Assembly (NCBI GenBank): GCA_023487205.1
Contig: JAMDBT010000051.1
Location: 1-64,000, forward strand
Origin: Thermoplasmatota archaeon
Lineage (GTDB): Archaea; Thermoplasmatota; Thermoplasmata; Thermoplasmatales; Thermoplasmataceae
DNA length: 64,000 nt
Direction of reading: 5' to 3'
The stretch's first letter is position 1; every line of letters starts with the position of its first letter. Of the stretch, positions 8,406 to 14,711 are shown piece after piece. The position numbers and the translations under genes were made by a program. Below the pieces are notes generated by a model. It was not told the origin of the DNA and searched no databases. It saw only the letters and a program-made list of their open reading frames with translations.

Positions 8406-9479
8406 TTATGGATTCCCGGACCTGGCTTCGTTAATTTCTTTGATTACGGCGCTGTTCTTTCTGGCCACTTCCAAAGCCGGCTTCATTATGGTCGAGAGAT
8501 GCCTCACTACAAACTCCTTCAGGTCCATGGGATGAATTTCTCCCCCCTGGAATCTGGCAACCAGATCCGATGCATTTTCAAGCTGCAGGTCTCCCCCCTT
8601 CTTTTCCGGCCTGTGAATCAAGATCGAATTCCTCAAGTGGGGAACGACAATCCAGCGAGCGATGTCCAGGACGGGATTGCCCTCCACTTCCCTGGGAGGA
8701 CACACAGCCCCTGAAATCTTCCTGGCCACTTCCTCCGGCCCGTCGCTGATGAAAATCCCGGAGTTCGGGTCGCTTTTTGACATCTTATTCATCTCCCCGC
8801 TGACTGCATCCATCCTGCCGCCTCCCCTCAGGCTTGAAATGAGGGGGGTGTGCAACGCCACAACTTTCTTCAGGCCAAGTTTAGAGGAAATGTCCCGCGA
8901 CAGCATGTGAGCGTGCCTCTGGTCCATTCCGCCAAGGGCAAAATCGTAATTCCTGTATGCAATATCGGTGACCTGCATTAACGGGTAGATCAGCTTGCTG
9001 AAATCTGATCCTGCGTCTTCCTCGGACCGACCCATGATGGGAAGGGCCCTCCTGACCCTGGTGAGACTCGTCGCCTTGGCCATCTTCAGCAGCATTTTCC
9101 AGTAGTTTCCATCAGAGGAAAGATCCTCGGCCCAGGTGAACCGCACCTTTTGACTCACTCCCATGGCCTTAAAGGTATCCTGGAAAATGTTTCCGCTTTT
9201 CCGGATCAGGTCAAGGTCACCCAGCAGCTTATCGTTGACCATCGCATGCCAGTCCGCGAGCAATACCTCCATCTCAATTCCCGCAGAGACCAGATCGTTG
9301 ATTTTCGCAGGGAACAGTATGCCTGTTCCAAGGTGGGGGATTCCTGATGGCTCGAAACCTATGTATCCTGTTGGATTCCCGCTCAGCGCCTTTTCTGCTT
9401 CTTCCTCCGTAACGACTTCAAGAAGGTTGCGTTCCAGTAGATCTAAATTCTGATTTCTGTTGACCGTAATAACATCCAC
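8406..9479 (-). CDS. tyrS: Tyrosine--tRNA ligase
   Basis: The 357-residue class I synthetase has the HIGH-like motif PHLGTG (48-53) and the KMSKS loop MNKMSKSDPNSG. The GFEPSGIPHLG context, the ...QVTDIAYRNYDFALGGMDQRHAH substrate-binding helix and the short C-terminal domain identify archaeal TyrRS rather than TrpRS. It charges tRNA-Tyr in the cytoplasm. It is convergent with FEN1 and lies just downstream of the smc-scpA-nuclease operon, from which about 80 bp separate it. Confidence 0.92.
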   Translation of the reverse strand: MDVITVNRNQNLDLLERNLLEVVTEEEAEKALSGNPTGYIGFEPSGIPHLGTGILFPAKINDLVSAGIEMEVLLADWHAMVNDKLLGDLDLIRKSGNIFQDTFKAMGVSQKVRFTWAEDLSSDGNYWKMLLKMAKATSLTRVRRALPIMGRSEEDAGSDFSKLIYPLMQVTDIAYRNYDFALGGMDQRHAHMLSRDISSKLGLKKVVALHTPLISSLRGGGRMDAVSGEMNKMSKSDPNSGIFISDGPEEVARKISGAVCPPREVEGNPVLDIARWIVVPHLRNSILIHRPEKKGGDLQLENASDLVARFQGGEIHPMDLKEFVVRHLSTIMKPALEVARKNSAVIKEINEARSGNP

Positions 9480-9560: not shown

Positions 9561-10118
9561 TCATTGTTGGACATATTCATAGCGAGGTTCCTGCCAGCCA
9601 TCGTTGTTGATTAAGCTTTGCGGGCAACTCTGCCTGAAGGAGCAGGAAATGCACCTTCTCGGGTTGGAATGGGCCCTGTCCGGCATTGAATACGTTGATC
9701 TCATCTCGCGCATTGTGTACAGGAGATCGGTTCGCAGCTTCAGGGAGTTCCGTACCCTGAATGCAGATCCTTCGTACTTGAGCACCCCATATGGTATTTT
9801 GAGGTTCGGGTAAACTTCCTCAAGAATCAGGAAATAGGCAGCCATCTGCAGCAAGTGCCCGTCTCTGGGATTTGTTGCCCTTGAGGACTTGTACTCGTAT
9901 GGAATTATGAAATTTCCAGTTCGGATAACCATGTCCGGTTTTCCCGAGAGCCCATAGTTGTTGGACCTCAGCACTGTCCCCTTTGATTGCAGGTCACCAT
10001 ATACTATCCTTCCTGGAGGAACTGCCGTGATCCCGGACCTCGATTTGACCAGTACCAGAATTATGAGTAGGAAGATGAGAAAAAGAAAGAGGAAAAAGGC
10101 TAAAGTGGCAGCTACCAA
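9561..10118 (-). CDS. Cas4/RecB-like nuclease, C-terminal part with TM helix
   Basis: The 185-residue frame starts at TTG (10118), overlapping the stop of the upstream frame by 7 bp. A strong TM helix (residues 3-24) precedes a PD-(D/E)XK nuclease core: D62 (SGKPD), E75 and K77 (YEYKS) and the QxxxY motif (Q91, Y95). The C-terminus has three Cys of a Cas4/AddB-type 4Fe-4S site (C156, C159, C165: RRCISCSFRQSC). The fourth Cys and motif-I His are in the neighbouring frame (10112-10354), so neither product alone is a complete enzyme. An in-frame TGA lies just upstream of the TTG. Either the pair is translated as two coupled subunits or a frameshift has split a single gene. Not near any CRISPR. 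Confidence 0.72.
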   Translation of the reverse strand: MVAATLAFFLFLFLIFLLIILVLVKSRSGITAVPPGRIVYGDLQSKGTVLRSNNYGLSGKPDMVIRTGNFIIPYEYKSSRATNPRDGHLLQMAAYFLILEEVYPNLKIPYGVLKYEGSAFRVRNSLKLRTDLLYTMREMRSTYSMPDRAHSNPRRCISCSFRQSCPQSLINNDGWQEPRYEYVQQ

Positions 10119-10354
10119 ATCAATAGCACCGCCAGGATCACAGAAACCAGTATGACTGCACCAGTAAGGATCGCGGTCGCGGATCTGAAAACTGAAACCT
10201 TCCTGTCCAGGCTTGCATGCATGCGCTGTCCGGTCCGGAGCCTGGTATTGGAATTCACGTCCCTGGGCACGCCTTCCTTGTTAAGGTACCATGAAACGTT
10301 GCAGAAGGAATACTGTGCAATTTCAGATGCTGCAAGTATATCGTCCTGTGCCAT
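10112..10354 (-). CDS. Cas4/RecB-like nuclease, N-terminal part with TM helix
   Basis: The 80-residue frame carries the front of a Cas4-like domain: SEIAQYSFC with the first cluster Cys (C18), then GQRMH with the motif-I His (H46). It ends in a TM helix (about residues 58-79) and TAG at 10114-10112. The ATG overlaps the scpA stop by one base (TGATG), so it is translated in the smc-scpA operon. The split from the C-terminal frame falls between two adjacent membrane helices. Function is inferred as single-strand or end-processing nuclease at the membrane; the link to SMC is by operon only. Confidence 0.7.
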   Translation of the reverse strand: MAQDDILAASEIAQYSFCNVSWYLNKEGVPRDVNSNTRLRTGQRMHASLDRKVSVFRSATAILTGAVILVSVILAVLLIW

Positions 10355-11184
10355 CAGGCATCCGCCTTCTCAACCCTCACGACTATTGGACCAAAATCCA
10401 CCTTCTGATCAAGCGTGATTAATTTTCTTCTGCACAGGAACATGGAATATGCGAGGAACGCCTTTCTCTCTTCCCCCTCTCCCCACGTCTCTTCCATCAG
10501 GAAATGCCTGGCAGTATTCGCCATTATCCTCTGCCGGAGTGCCTCGATCTCTTTCTCCGGTTCCTCGGAATGGAGTTCTTCAACGATCTTCTCCATCTGC
10601 GCGGGAGTTATGACTATCTCATCCTTCTGGCCCGTGAATGGCTTCACGCTGACGCTGGAAGCTTTTCTCAGTGCCACCAGTAGGTCCAGTAGCGTAATTT
10701 TCCGTGTCTCCGAGTGTCTCATGGGTGGAATAATCCCGACATCGTCATTCTCCTGTGTGGGCATCTCTAAATCAGTGTTTTCCTGGTTGAATACGTTCAC
10801 GTCAAAGCCGAACCCTTCCTCCAGGTCGGGCAGGAGGACTTCCTTCACAATTTCTGGAGAGGCCCTGCGAAGCATGATCTCGCTTTTCCTGTACAGCAGG
10901 TGCCACGCACTCAGCATCAGGTACCCCGCCCCTGCGAAGTCTGTAAATTTCTCGTCAAGTATTTCCCGCAACACTCTTGCAAAGCTGGAAATATCCACAT
11001 TCCATGGATCCATGATGCCGCGCTCGCACATTGACACTAGCCTGGACGCAATCCTCGAAAGCAGGTCCGTTTCTCCAACGGAAACTTTCTCCGACTCGGT
11101 GACAAGGTGTTCGTAGAATTCGGTCTCCACTTCCATCATGGTGCCCTGCACGATAATATTCTTCAGCAGGTCTTTAGAAATCAT
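10354..11184 (-). CDS. scpA: Segregation and condensation protein A
   Basis: The 276-residue kleisin subunit has the N-terminal SMC-neck-binding region with DLLSRIASRLVSM and MDPWNVDISSFARVL, an acidic variable middle, and a C-terminal winged helix (TLLDLLVALRKASS) that would bind the SMC head. It overlaps the smc stop by 4 bp (ATGA). Together SMC and ScpA form a ring that folds and segregates DNA. No scpB was found in this window; the archaeal complex often lacks an obvious one beside scpA. Confidence 0.9.
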   Translation of the reverse strand: MISKDLLKNIIVQGTMMEVETEFYEHLVTESEKVSVGETDLLSRIASRLVSMCERGIMDPWNVDISSFARVLREILDEKFTDFAGAGYLMLSAWHLLYRKSEIMLRRASPEIVKEVLLPDLEEGFGFDVNVFNQENTDLEMPTQENDDVGIIPPMRHSETRKITLLDLLVALRKASSVSVKPFTGQKDEIVITPAQMEKIVEELHSEEPEKEIEALRQRIMANTARHFLMEETWGEGEERKAFLAYSMFLCRRKLITLDQKVDFGPIVVRVEKADA

Positions 11185-14100
11185 ACGGGTACCTCCGAGA
11201 AGCTCTTGGTGAACACTTCAGTATTTTCGTCGTCAAACGTTGTTACGCCCACAATCTGGTCGGCATATTTCAGCATGGCCTTCCTGAGGGACACAATCAG
11301 GACCTGTGATGTCTTGGAGTTCTCCTTGAGCATCTTCCCTATGCGCTCAGCGTTGGAACCGTCAAGGAACATGTCGACTTCGTCAAGGTAATAAACGGGT
11401 GACGGGTTGATACGCTGTACCGACATTATGAAAGCCATTGCTGTGAGGCTCTTTTCACCCCCGCTGAGTGCACCTATCTTGTTGAAGTTGCTTCCTTTTG
11501 GCTTGGCTCTTATGTTGATCTCGGATTCCAGAGGTTTATCCTCGTCAGACATTACGAGCGAAGCTTCCCCTCCGTCGGAAAGTGCATAGTATATTGAATT
11601 CATGTGGAGGTTGATATCCCTGAAAAGTCGCATGAAGACAACCTTCTTCTGCTCTATGAGGGACTCTTCCAGCTTTTCGAGTTCGCGCCTCTCTGCCCTG
11701 AGCTTTTCCATTTCCCCGTCCAGTGAGGCCAGAAAGTCTTTTTCTGTCTGGTACTCCTCTATCGCCTTCAGGTTGACCGCACCCATAGCTGTTACTTCAT
11801 TTTCCTTAGTGCTGACTGCGGACTTCATTTCCTGCAGTCCCATGGAGGTTACCATTACCGAACCGCCTGACTCCAGTATCTGAGACTCGGTGAGTGCAAT
11901 TCTGTCCCTGAGAACTCCGCTCCTTACCTCGAAATCCGTAATGATCTCGCTCTTGGAGGTAACCTCAGATCCAACGCGATCCATATCCTGCGTCCCTGCG
12001 TTTATGATCTTCTCAAGTTCCAGTATCCTCGCGTTGATGGCCCTGACCTGCTCGTTGATTGAATCCTCAACAGCAGTAAGCTTCGCAAGCTCCTCCCTTA
12101 GGACTGAAGCCTTCTGCTTTTCCTGTGCTCTTTTCACCCCAATTTCAGATTTCCTGTTCCTGCACTTTAAAATATTCTGGTTGGCTGCTTCGATGCTTTT
12201 CTGCAGATTTTCGAGCCTGAGTCTATCCCCGGTAAGATCTGAAGACTTGCCTGAAAGGTCGTCTCTCAGCAGGTGCAGTTCCTTCTCGATGGAATTCTTC
12301 TCCTCGATCATCTCAGGTGAGAAGGACTTCATCTTCTCAAATATCTGCTCTTTCGTCTTTTCAAGCTCGGTGATGTGATCGACCAGTACGCCTTCCTGCT
12401 TCCCGAATTCGGCGATTCTTCCATCCAATCCTGACAGCGACAGCCGTTCCTTCTCGATTTCGCCCCTGCATTTCGCAAGCAGCGGGTCGTTCTTGACTAT
12501 CGTCTCACGATAGAAAGAAATCTTTCCGGAGTCCGTGCCCTCACTTCTGGAACTCTCGTGGAGCTTTGATGTGACAATGTCCAGTTCGTCGTTTGCATCA
12601 GCGATGAGCTGGCTGATCTCCGCGAGCCTTGCGTCCATGGTTGAAAGCTCAGCAGAGAGTTCCCGTAGCCTGGCTTCTGTAGCAAGTGGAGACTTGCGAT
12701 CGGCGTATCCGCCAGTAATTGCACCACCAGCATCGAAAATGTCCCCTTCCATTGTGACCAGCCTGACTCCTCCCATATGCTTTCGTGCGGTGGGAACGTC
12801 GGCCATAATGAGGGTATCCTGGAAACAGTACCAAATGATGCTCTCGTATTCTGGCCCGTACTTGACGTTCTCGAAAATGTATCCGAGACTCTCGCCGGAG
12901 TTCCTCACCATAATCGCTTTTCCTCTCGGCCTTGCTGGAGACATCTTGTTCAGCGGCAGCAGAGTGATCCTGCCGGCCTTTTCCCTCTTAAGCACATTGA
13001 GGCACTTCTCCGCAACTTCGTCTGTGTCAACAACAAGCGAGTTGAGCCTGTTTCCCGCTGCAGCTTCAATGGCAAGTGCGTATTTCTCGTCGAAGGACAA
13101 AAGTTCCCTGACCGTTCCGTGGATTCCAGTCAGTTGCCCATTTGACCTTGCCGCAGCGATGGCGGAAAGCGCCCTGGATGAGGGGCCAAACCTCGCGTTG
13201 GAGGACGCGCTTATCCTTTCATACTCCTTGCCTGCTTCAGAATGCCGCTTGGTAAGTCCTGATTTCTCAGTATTCAGCGATTCTAGCGTGTTTCTGAGCT
13301 TATAATATCGATCACTAAGCGATTTGGTCTCCTTCTGGCTCTTCTGTGTCGATTCCTCGATGTCCCTGATTCTCCACTTTGCATCCTTGATTTCCGATTC
13401 CAGCGATTTTTCCTTTTCCTCCAGCACCGAGAGGCGCTGCAGTACGGAGTTCTTTTCCGATTCAACATATCCGACCTGTGAATTCAGATCCTGTTCTGCC
13501 TTTCTTGCCTCCGCCATTCTGGAGTCATTCTCAACAAGCTTACCCTGCAGTTCTGATATTTCCTTCGAAGAACTTCCTGTCACCGAGAGCAAATCGGAAA
13601 ATCTCTCATCAAGTTCCTTCTTCCTCTTCTCAAGACCGGCCAGTTTCTCCGTTTCCCCGGCAATTCTCTCTTCCAGCTGCCGGATCTCCACGTTCGAGGA
13701 AGTGATATCATCAGAATCACCTGAAATCTCAGTTTCCAGATTCTGGTCTTCCCTGTCGAGGGACTTGATGTCCAGTTCCACCTCGCCTATGGAGATCCTG
13801 GCCTGTTCTATCTTTCCCCTGATCTCCCTTGACTCCTCCGAGGATGATCGCTCGCGCAGTTCCTGCTGCTTAGCGATTTCCTGTCTTGCTGAGTCTATCT
13901 TTTCCTTTATCGATTGCTTCTGCTTTTCCAGATTGCCTATCTCAGATCGTACCAGTTCGACCTGCCTGGACAATCCTTCCATTTCCTTTGTCTGGGTCGT
14001 CAGCTGCCTTGTCAGAATCGTGGTCTTGAGATTCTTGATCTCGGATGTAAGGATGTTGTACTTTTCTGCCTGTGCTTTCTCTGCCTGCAGCTGGTCAAGC

Positions 14101-14711
14101 CTCTTATTGTGGTCATCCCTGAGAATTCCAATCTTCTCGAGGTTCACAGCCACTCCCCGGATGTCGGTCTCTGCTTTCTCTATCTGGTTATTGTAGCTCT
14201 CTATCCCTGCAATGGATTCCAGCAGCTTCCTCCTCTCGGTTCCAGACATTTCTATGAGATTGTTTATGTCACCCTGCAGTACAAAACTGTACGAATCCAG
14301 GTAAATCTGGGAAACGTCAAGGAGATGTTCCACGTCGGATCTCTTGCTCCGAGCACCGTTGATGAAGTAGGTACTGCGGTAATCTCCCCCCTCAAGTTCC
14401 AGTTCACGGGTTATGTTGATTCTTCTTTGCTCTTCGGGCACGTCCTCCCTTTCGGTATCTATTATCAGGGACACCCGGCAGCTGTTTCGTTGCCTCTGCG
14501 CATTGGATGCCTTATGTATCAAATCTGATAATCTCTCTGCGCGAATAGTCTTGGAAGATCGAACGCCAAGAACAAAAAGCATCGCGTCCCCTATGTTGCT
14601 TTTCCCGCTGCCATTCGGACCGCTGATGACAGTCAGACCCTTCCTGAAAGTAATTTTCCTCTTATTCCCGAAGGATTTGAAGTTGTCCAGTTCAATAGAT
14701 TCTATAAGCAT
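11181..14711 (-). CDS. smc: Chromosome segregation protein SMC
   Basis: The 1176-residue ATPase has the full SMC plan: N-terminal head with Walker A GPNGSGKS (31-38), a first coiled coil to about residue 500, a hinge near 510-660 with Gly-rich turns, a second coiled coil, and a C-terminal head with signature LSGGEKSLTAM and Walker B PVYYLDEVDMFLDG. Length is normal. First gene of an operon smc-scpA-nuclease. A TATA-like box at 14741-14749 lies about 34 nt before the ATG, implying a very short leader. The many frames on the opposite strand here are shadows of the coiled coil. Confidence 0.96.
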   Translation of the reverse strand: MLIESIELDNFKSFGNKRKITFRKGLTVISGPNGSGKSNIGDAMLFVLGVRSSKTIRAERLSDLIHKASNAQRQRNSCRVSLIIDTEREDVPEEQRRINITRELELEGGDYRSTYFINGARSKRSDVEHLLDVSQIYLDSYSFVLQGDINNLIEMSGTERRKLLESIAGIESYNNQIEKAETDIRGVAVNLEKIGILRDDHNKRLDQLQAEKAQAEKYNILTSEIKNLKTTILTRQLTTQTKEMEGLSRQVELVRSEIGNLEKQKQSIKEKIDSARQEIAKQQELRERSSSEESREIRGKIEQARISIGEVELDIKSLDREDQNLETEISGDSDDITSSNVEIRQLEERIAGETEKLAGLEKRKKELDERFSDLLSVTGSSSKEISELQGKLVENDSRMAEARKAEQDLNSQVGYVESEKNSVLQRLSVLEEKEKSLESEIKDAKWRIRDIEESTQKSQKETKSLSDRYYKLRNTLESLNTEKSGLTKRHSEAGKEYERISASSNARFGPSSRALSAIAAARSNGQLTGIHGTVRELLSFDEKYALAIEAAAGNRLNSLVVDTDEVAEKCLNVLKREKAGRITLLPLNKMSPARPRGKAIMVRNSGESLGYIFENVKYGPEYESIIWYCFQDTLIMADVPTARKHMGGVRLVTMEGDIFDAGGAITGGYADRKSPLATEARLRELSAELSTMDARLAEISQLIADANDELDIVTSKLHESSRSEGTDSGKISFYRETIVKNDPLLAKCRGEIEKERLSLSGLDGRIAEFGKQEGVLVDHITELEKTKEQIFEKMKSFSPEMIEEKNSIEKELHLLRDDLSGKSSDLTGDRLRLENLQKSIEAANQNILKCRNRKSEIGVKRAQEKQKASVLREELAKLTAVEDSINEQVRAINARILELEKIINAGTQDMDRVGSEVTSKSEIITDFEVRSGVLRDRIALTESQILESGGSVMVTSMGLQEMKSAVSTKENEVTAMGAVNLKAIEEYQTEKDFLASLDGEMEKLRAERRELEKLEESLIEQKKVVFMRLFRDINLHMNSIYYALSDGGEASLVMSDEDKPLESEINIRAKPKGSNFNKIGALSGGEKSLTAMAFIMSVQRINPSPVYYLDEVDMFLDGSNAERIGKMLKENSKTSQVLIVSLRKAMLKYADQIVGVTTFDDENTEVFTKSFSEVPV

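Follow-up and report, generated by a model that had tools for sequence, protein, structure and literature searches.

A predicted Cas4-like nuclease encoded as two overlapping membrane-protein genes in Thermoplasmatota

Downstream of smc and scpA, a 64,000-nucleotide stretch of archaeal DNA (hereafter the window) contains two short overlapping reading frames that, taken together, resemble one Cas4-type nuclease. This arrangement raises the question of whether the frames are the fragments of a broken gene, a single gene decoded by frameshifting or two genes in their own right and, in this last case, what two small membrane proteins would do in such a setting.

Two frames between scpA and a tRNA synthetase gene

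On the minus strand of the window, smc and scpA are followed by the first half of the nuclease (N), its second half (C) and a class I tRNA synthetase gene (table 1). The smc and scpA genes meet in an ATGA overlap and, at the next junction, the scpA stop codon TGA overlaps the N start as TGATG; the scpA product has no Pfam match. The initial annotation had placed a cluster cysteine, the motif-I histidine and one transmembrane (TM) helix in the first frame, another TM helix, the D/E-x-K motif and three cysteines in the second, and a TTG/TAG overlap between the two, with the cut falling between the two helices. Both frames and the overlap are indeed present, hydropathy and residue positions agree with the position of the split, and the remainder of this description also holds except for one point, an in-frame TGA said to lie just upstream of the TTG. 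The TGA at 10122 belongs to the third frame; in the C frame, 54 open codons precede the TTG, the nearest stop being a TAA at 10283. The junction of a sister species (G001), whose proteins are 67–69% identical to the window pair, is also TTGGTAG.

Table 1. Positions of the genes of the locus and of the predicted functional elements of the N and C subunits in the window
Feature	Coordinates	Strand	Description
smc	11181..14711	(-)	1176 aa; housekeeping SMC; TIGR02169 SMC_prok_A 849.5 bits, cut-off 729.4; SMC_N, SMC_hinge
scpA (kleisin)	10354..11184	(-)	276 aa; called from position and length; smc and N flank it at 47/47 family loci
N subunit gene	10112..10354	(-)	80 aa; ATG start, TAG stop; Cas4 N-terminal region, then one terminal TM helix
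Cys18 of N	10301..10303	(-)	Predicted first Fe-S cluster ligand; in all 68 pairs
His46 of N (GxxxH)	10217..10219	(-)	Nuclease motif I; in 63/68 pairs, missing only where the E and K of C are also missing
TM helix of N, residues 61–79	10118..10174	(-)	Hydropathy; part of long helix 42–90 in the G016 fused model
N/C overlap TTGGTAG	10112..10118	(-)	TTG, C start; TAG, N stop; read from the sequence
C subunit gene	9561..10118	(-)	185 aa; TTG start, overlapping with the stop of N; PD-(D/E)XK core and three Cys after one TM helix
TM helix of C, residues 6–24	10047..10103	(-)	Hydropathy; helix 95–114 in the G016 fused model
GKPD of C, residues 59–62	9933..9944	(-)	Predicted metal-binding Asp, motif II; G59, P61 and D62 invariant in C alignment A1
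E75-x-K77 of C	9888..9896	(-)	Motif III (ExK); in 63/68 pairs
Q91 of C	9846..9848	(-)	Within the QMxxYF motif
C156-x2-C159-x5-C165 of C	9624..9653	(-)	Predicted remaining three Fe-S ligands; in all 68 pairs
tRNA synthetase, class I aminoacyl-, W/Y type, taken as tyrS	8406..9479	(-)	PF00579 132.8 bits; downstream gene in 47/47 family loci

Cys18, Gly42 and His46 are invariant in the N alignment (A2, 19 rows), and the Kyte–Doolittle values of the two predicted helices are 3.0 (N) and 3.6 (C). Basic residues at the soluble side of each helix should place both soluble parts in the cytoplasm and the cut in the outer loop of a helical hairpin.

Distribution of the split and single-chain forms

Our comparison included Thermoplasmata metagenome genomes, E-plasma, Cuniculiplasma and the complete genome ASS_A1, most of the genomes being metagenome assemblies. 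In an initial search of 61 relatives, the C half was found in 36 genomes, a figure that includes some single-chain relatives, and the N half in 27. Altogether, 68 split pairs were identified: 47 from the window's family, in which N and C lie on the same contig; 3 from two sister families (G058, G400, and G039), which we read alongside the former (n = 50); and 18 in f48, a family of another class, where a search of the phylum showed the two-gene layout at 18/18 loci examined. A profile search detected N orthologs in 48 of the 77 genomes of the window's family, and the co-occurrence of the two halves in this family is perfect, as the 40 genomes with a strong C match all have N and the 19 listed without C all lack N. 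With the same layout in 68 pairs, the two-frame arrangement is far beyond chance. Judging from these sequences, a Cas4-like enzyme is permanently encoded as two small putative membrane proteins in many Thermoplasmatota, each carrying part of one predicted active site. Automated annotation could easily take two such short overlapping frames for a pseudogene or for small hypothetical proteins. One genome of the window's family (G006, locus L140) has a 79-aa frame directly after scpA and before tyrS, with a TM-like helix at its end; the C gene is absent and the N profile has no match there, and this frame is perhaps the remnant of a deleted pair.

The position of the C frame relative to the N frame is not constant, with an offset of +2 in 39 pairs, +1 in 25 and 0 in 4. 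None of the 68 pairs is fused, the four in-phase pairs being separated by a single stop codon. At most junctions of the window's family, the C frame has an ATG, GTG, or TTG, in the patterns ATGA, TTGA, TGATG, or TGANATG, and these forms are, from their sequence, those of coupled translation. Programmed frameshifting or stop codon read-through, which would yield one fused protein, might be suspected from frames that overlap or abut, from the four genomes in which a single stop separates two in-phase frames and from the Shine-Dalgarno-like GAGGTGAT found just ahead of the stop in family f48, but we regard it as very unlikely. A recoding signal would need one constant offset and, because offsets of 0, +1, and +2 occur among orthologs and no single event fits all of them, a single recoded gene is disfavored. 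In addition, the 68 pairs share no slippery sequence, three different stop codons are used, and most junctions of the window's family display a start codon and a coupling pattern. As for a sequencing or assembly error, proposed initially as a shift near 10112–10120 that broke a single gene and conceivable for a draft contig in a 60-contig assembly, it can practically be dismissed, since the orthologs have two frames throughout the 68 pairs, with variable offsets, the layout recurs in independent assemblies that include one-contig genomes (G010, G012, G013, G018, G498, G510, and G514), and the junction of the sister species is identical.

Two minor observations concern unusual junctions. In 11 of the 18 f48 pairs (L234, L236, L237, L238, L239, L240, L242, L244, L246, L250, and L251), the codon of the C frame that overlaps the N stop (ATAG or ATAA) is ATA and not ATG, GTG, or TTG, usually with GAGGTGAT ahead, which suggests that translation of the second subunit in this family regularly starts at ATA or is coupled in some other way. 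A fusion of N to ScpA, considered on account of long open frames in G247, G409, and G266, was rejected after G247 was checked, as its open frame differs from that of scpA.

Most other Thermoplasmata families possess a single-chain Cas4-like gene of about 320–345 aa with the same motifs (L087–L098, L214–L233, and L252–L253), and a C-profile match of any form was found in 277/400 genomes of the class. Single-chain relatives with four TM segments are widespread within both class and phylum. Hydropathy indicates, in most of the single-chain forms read, four TM segments between motifs I and II, that is, at the very place where the pair is split. Because these relatives have TM segments at the same place, the two halves can be considered to belong to one protein. 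The likeness between the single-chain proteins of Thermoplasmata/Thermoplasmatota and the split pair extends to the motifs and the TM insertion point; they differ in that the former are encoded by one gene, contain about four TM segments and group separately, whereas the latter consists of two genes with one TM helix each. Phylogenies of the catalytic domain recovered the single-chain forms as one clade (support 93–94) and did not reject a single clade for all split forms (p-AU 0.655). These trees were rooted with canonical Cas4, whose outgroup branches are long, and either the split or the single-chain form may be ancestral. Both forms coexist in three genomes of the sister families (G039, G058, and G400).

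A predicted Cas4-like fold with one predicted active site from two genes

Several lines of evidence place the pair in the Cas4/PD-(D/E)XK superfamily. In Pfam, the C subunit scores above the cut-offs of both Cas_Cas4 (PF01930; 31 bits, cut-off 22.7) and PDDEXK_1 (30.4 bits, cut-off 22), while the match of N by itself is confined to the beginning of PDDEXK_1 and stays below cut-off (17.3 bits). When a pair of locus L182 is read through its single stop, PDDEXK_1 aligns over positions 1–246 of 247 with 49.7 bits (cut-off 22). With PADLOC, C matches Cas4 at 65 bits, N and C match mainly Cas4-type models, and the similarity of N, taken by itself, to the Cas4 models is weak. A joint N and C profile compared with the PDB retrieved Cas4 as the only sequence match (8d3l, 218 residues, E-value 1.4e-8), with a collinear alignment in which the N part corresponds to residues 12–64 and the C part to 103–205. 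Structure prediction is in agreement with these results: the AlphaFold2 model of the G016 pair, in which the modelled read-through chain is an artificial fusion and not a natural protein, has a pLDDT of 85 and a pTM of 0.76, and its best Foldseek matches are the Cas4 structures 7mi5 and 8d3l, followed by Dna2 and MGME1, with AdnAB and EXO5 also found. The Fe-S exonucleases of the RecB/AddB/Dna2/EXO5 group share this nuclease fold, with N- and C-terminal cysteines around it, and are soluble, with a single-chain nuclease domain that is often fused to a helicase. By profile, motifs and predicted fold, the pair thus belongs to the superfamily. Its encoding by two genes, each with one TM helix, departs from the single soluble polypeptide that is typical of known Cas4, a feature that is not strictly defining for the superfamily.

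The residues expected of such an enzyme are distributed over the two genes. The full set (C, G, and H in N; G, D, E, K, Q, H, and three C in C), which comprises the His, Asp, ExK, and Gln of the active site, was found in 63 of the 68 pairs, and the four cysteines of the predicted 4Fe-4S cluster, one N-terminal and three C-terminal, are present in all 68. The five other pairs (L158, L159, L160, L173, and L082) come from two lineages (G032 and G295/G351/G397/G407), in which the N histidine and the C glutamate and lysine have been lost jointly while all four cysteines and the position in the smc-scpA operon have been kept. If the active site is shared, such a joint loss in both genes within a lineage is to be expected. 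When the family's 12 genera are treated as units, we estimate that two N losses and two C losses would fall in the same genera by chance in about 1 case in 66, although two independent joint losses are few. dN/dS ratios for four of these pairs (G295/G351/G397/G407; the dS of the G032 pair is saturated) range from 0.06 to 0.26 for N and from 0.05 to 0.17 for C, which corresponds to purifying selection on both halves. Given such low values, the four measurable pairs are not decaying pseudogenes.

Conservation, variable offsets and joint catalytic loss together give good support to one of the two readings offered initially, namely a genuine membrane nuclease of two subunits that share an active site and an Fe-S cluster, and they argue strongly for a single composite active site and a single predicted Fe-S cluster formed by two putative membrane subunits. 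On the other hand, since five pairs are devoid of the catalytic residues, nuclease activity cannot be the only selected function. By inference, a second, noncatalytic role would exist, dependent on the predicted cluster and on the membrane helices.

In our view, N and C are very probably two genes, co-transcribed and translationally coupled, whose products are the subunits of a single membrane-bound nuclease of the Cas4 type. In such an enzyme, the N subunit would give the first cluster cysteine and the motif-I histidine and would end in a TM helix, while the C subunit would start with a TM helix and contribute the aspartate, the ExK motif, the glutamine and three cysteines. The two TM helices may come together as a hairpin, interrupted in its outer loop, and the cytoplasmic soluble parts would assemble in a 1:1 complex into a single PD-(D/E)XK fold that contains one active site and one 4Fe-4S cluster. 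Translational coupling would keep the two subunits in equal amounts, and neither half would be expected to cut alone. This putative Fe-S exonuclease, akin to Cas4 and Dna2, would most likely serve genome maintenance by processing DNA ends or single-stranded DNA on the cytoplasmic side of the membrane. In the two lineages with dead pairs, it may have become a catalytically dead DNA-binding or scaffold protein that keeps its cluster and still binds DNA or a partner.

An active site and a metal cluster shared by two separately encoded membrane subunits would be rare among enzymes. The 68 pairs, with their two natural joint inactivations, offer a system for asking why a fold usually made by one chain stays split, and the dead pairs one for studying the role of a Cas4-like protein that keeps its predicted Fe-S cluster without catalysis. 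More generally, these results would assign a membrane location, outside CRISPR, to a large group of predicted Cas4-like nucleases, which is relevant to the function of solo-Cas4 proteins.

Genomic neighborhood and possible functional partners

In the window's family, the order smc-scpA-N-C was found at 47/47 loci, and a tRNA synthetase gene (tyrS) follows the pair at these same 47 loci. Because tyrS is equally invariant, gene order does not single out SMC as a partner. Beyond this family the synteny breaks down, as the split pairs of families f3, f4, and f48 are not near smc, and neither are the single-chain genes whose neighborhoods were examined. The f3 pair (L085 and L147) follows genes that we identified by eye from their sequences as ribosomal protein L44e-like, aIF2-alpha-like, and PAC2-like, the f4 and f48 pairs have mixed neighbors, and clustering of the neighbors of the f48, f3, f4, and single-chain genes revealed mixed housekeeping genes and no common partner. 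Conversely, several genera of the window's family have smc-scpA but no pair (G007/G025/G134, G011/G154/G342, G019/G035, G020, and G006). The link to smc is thus a lineage-specific, stable operon. That the pair replaces ScpB was also considered and can be ruled out, as ScpB is encoded elsewhere in 20 of the 21 genomes searched.

The initial annotation had read the smc-scpA linkage as a sign of action together with loop extrusion. The linkage itself stands, whereas the concerted action, though possible, draws no support from it, tyrS being as constant a neighbor and other pairs lying away from smc. In its general form, this proposal has the pair work physically with SMC-ScpAB as a membrane-anchored nuclease, or as an anchor, on extruded loops. 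The invariant order at the 47 family loci, the overlapping junctions in the window and the operon position retained by pairs that are dead but under selection are consistent with it, but the equal constancy of tyrS, the location of the f3, f4, and f48 pairs and of the examined single-chain relatives away from smc, the family genera that keep smc-scpA without the pair and the housekeeping type of the SMC make such a partnership rather unlikely. A more specific version, in which an obligate heterodimeric Fe-S nuclease (a dead DNA anchor in two lineages) would tether DNA handled by SMC-ScpAB to the membrane and cut or hold it, seems to us improbable; if true, it would physically connect loop extrusion to the archaeal membrane.

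A nuclease-like pair inside an SMC operon, with a C subunit matched by the Cas4 models of PADLOC, also recalls the antiplasmid or antivirus systems in which a nuclease cooperates with SMC proteins, such as Wadjet (JetABCD) or MksBEFG, and a conceptual likeness to plasmid defense had been noted initially. This likeness is limited to the presence of a predicted nuclease in one operon with SMC and was not borne out further. In Wadjet, JetD is a Toprim nuclease that acts with a dedicated SMC core, JetABC (PMC10586767), whereas the pair described here is of the PD-(D/E)XK type and is associated with a housekeeping-type SMC and ScpA, with ScpB encoded elsewhere. The SMC is not MukB-like (JetC/MksB): it exceeds the cut-off of the chromosomal equivalog TIGR02169 (849.5 bits), while JetC models give E-values of only 2.6e-7 to 7e-6. 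No JetD match (JetD/MksG Toprim nuclease) was obtained among the operon proteins tested, and the operon showed no Toprim gene resembling JetD. Moreover, the distribution of the pair is family-wide with a fixed gene order rather than patchy, and its evolution is slow and constrained. A defense system of this type is therefore hardly probable.

Even less credible is a role as the Cas4 of CRISPR adaptation. The fold and motifs are the same, and the fused reading of one pair (L181) exceeds the cut-off of the cas4 equivalog TIGR00372 (69.6 vs. 65 bits), the C subunit of the window reaching 63.6 bits. However, the constant neighbors are scpA and tyrS, which flank the pair in 47/47 loci, and not cas genes such as cas1 or cas2, the neighbors in f3 are ribosomal and translation genes, TM segments are not part of known Cas4, and the window genome has two other Cas4 homologs above the Cas_Cas4 cut-off. 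With the Cas4 family (PF01930/COG1468) and the solo-Cas4 of archaea (PMC5704561), the pair shares the core, the His, Asp, ExK, and Gln residues, the 1+3 order of the cysteines and a fold match; it differs from them by an active site and cluster cysteines spread over two genes, two TM helices between motifs I and II and its location in the smc-scpA operon. A phylogenomic survey of Cas4 describes solo-Cas4, and its main text contains no SMC, split genes or transmembrane forms (PMC5704561). No split or membrane Cas4 was found in the open-access literature searched, which lacks most subscription papers, and this absence is no proof of novelty. The two other Cas4 homologs of the window genome lie at G000:C22:6636-7196 (L002) and G000:C26:2420-2995 (L001); one is located within a 566-aa open frame, perhaps a Cas4-Cas1 protein, and the other within a 235-aa frame.
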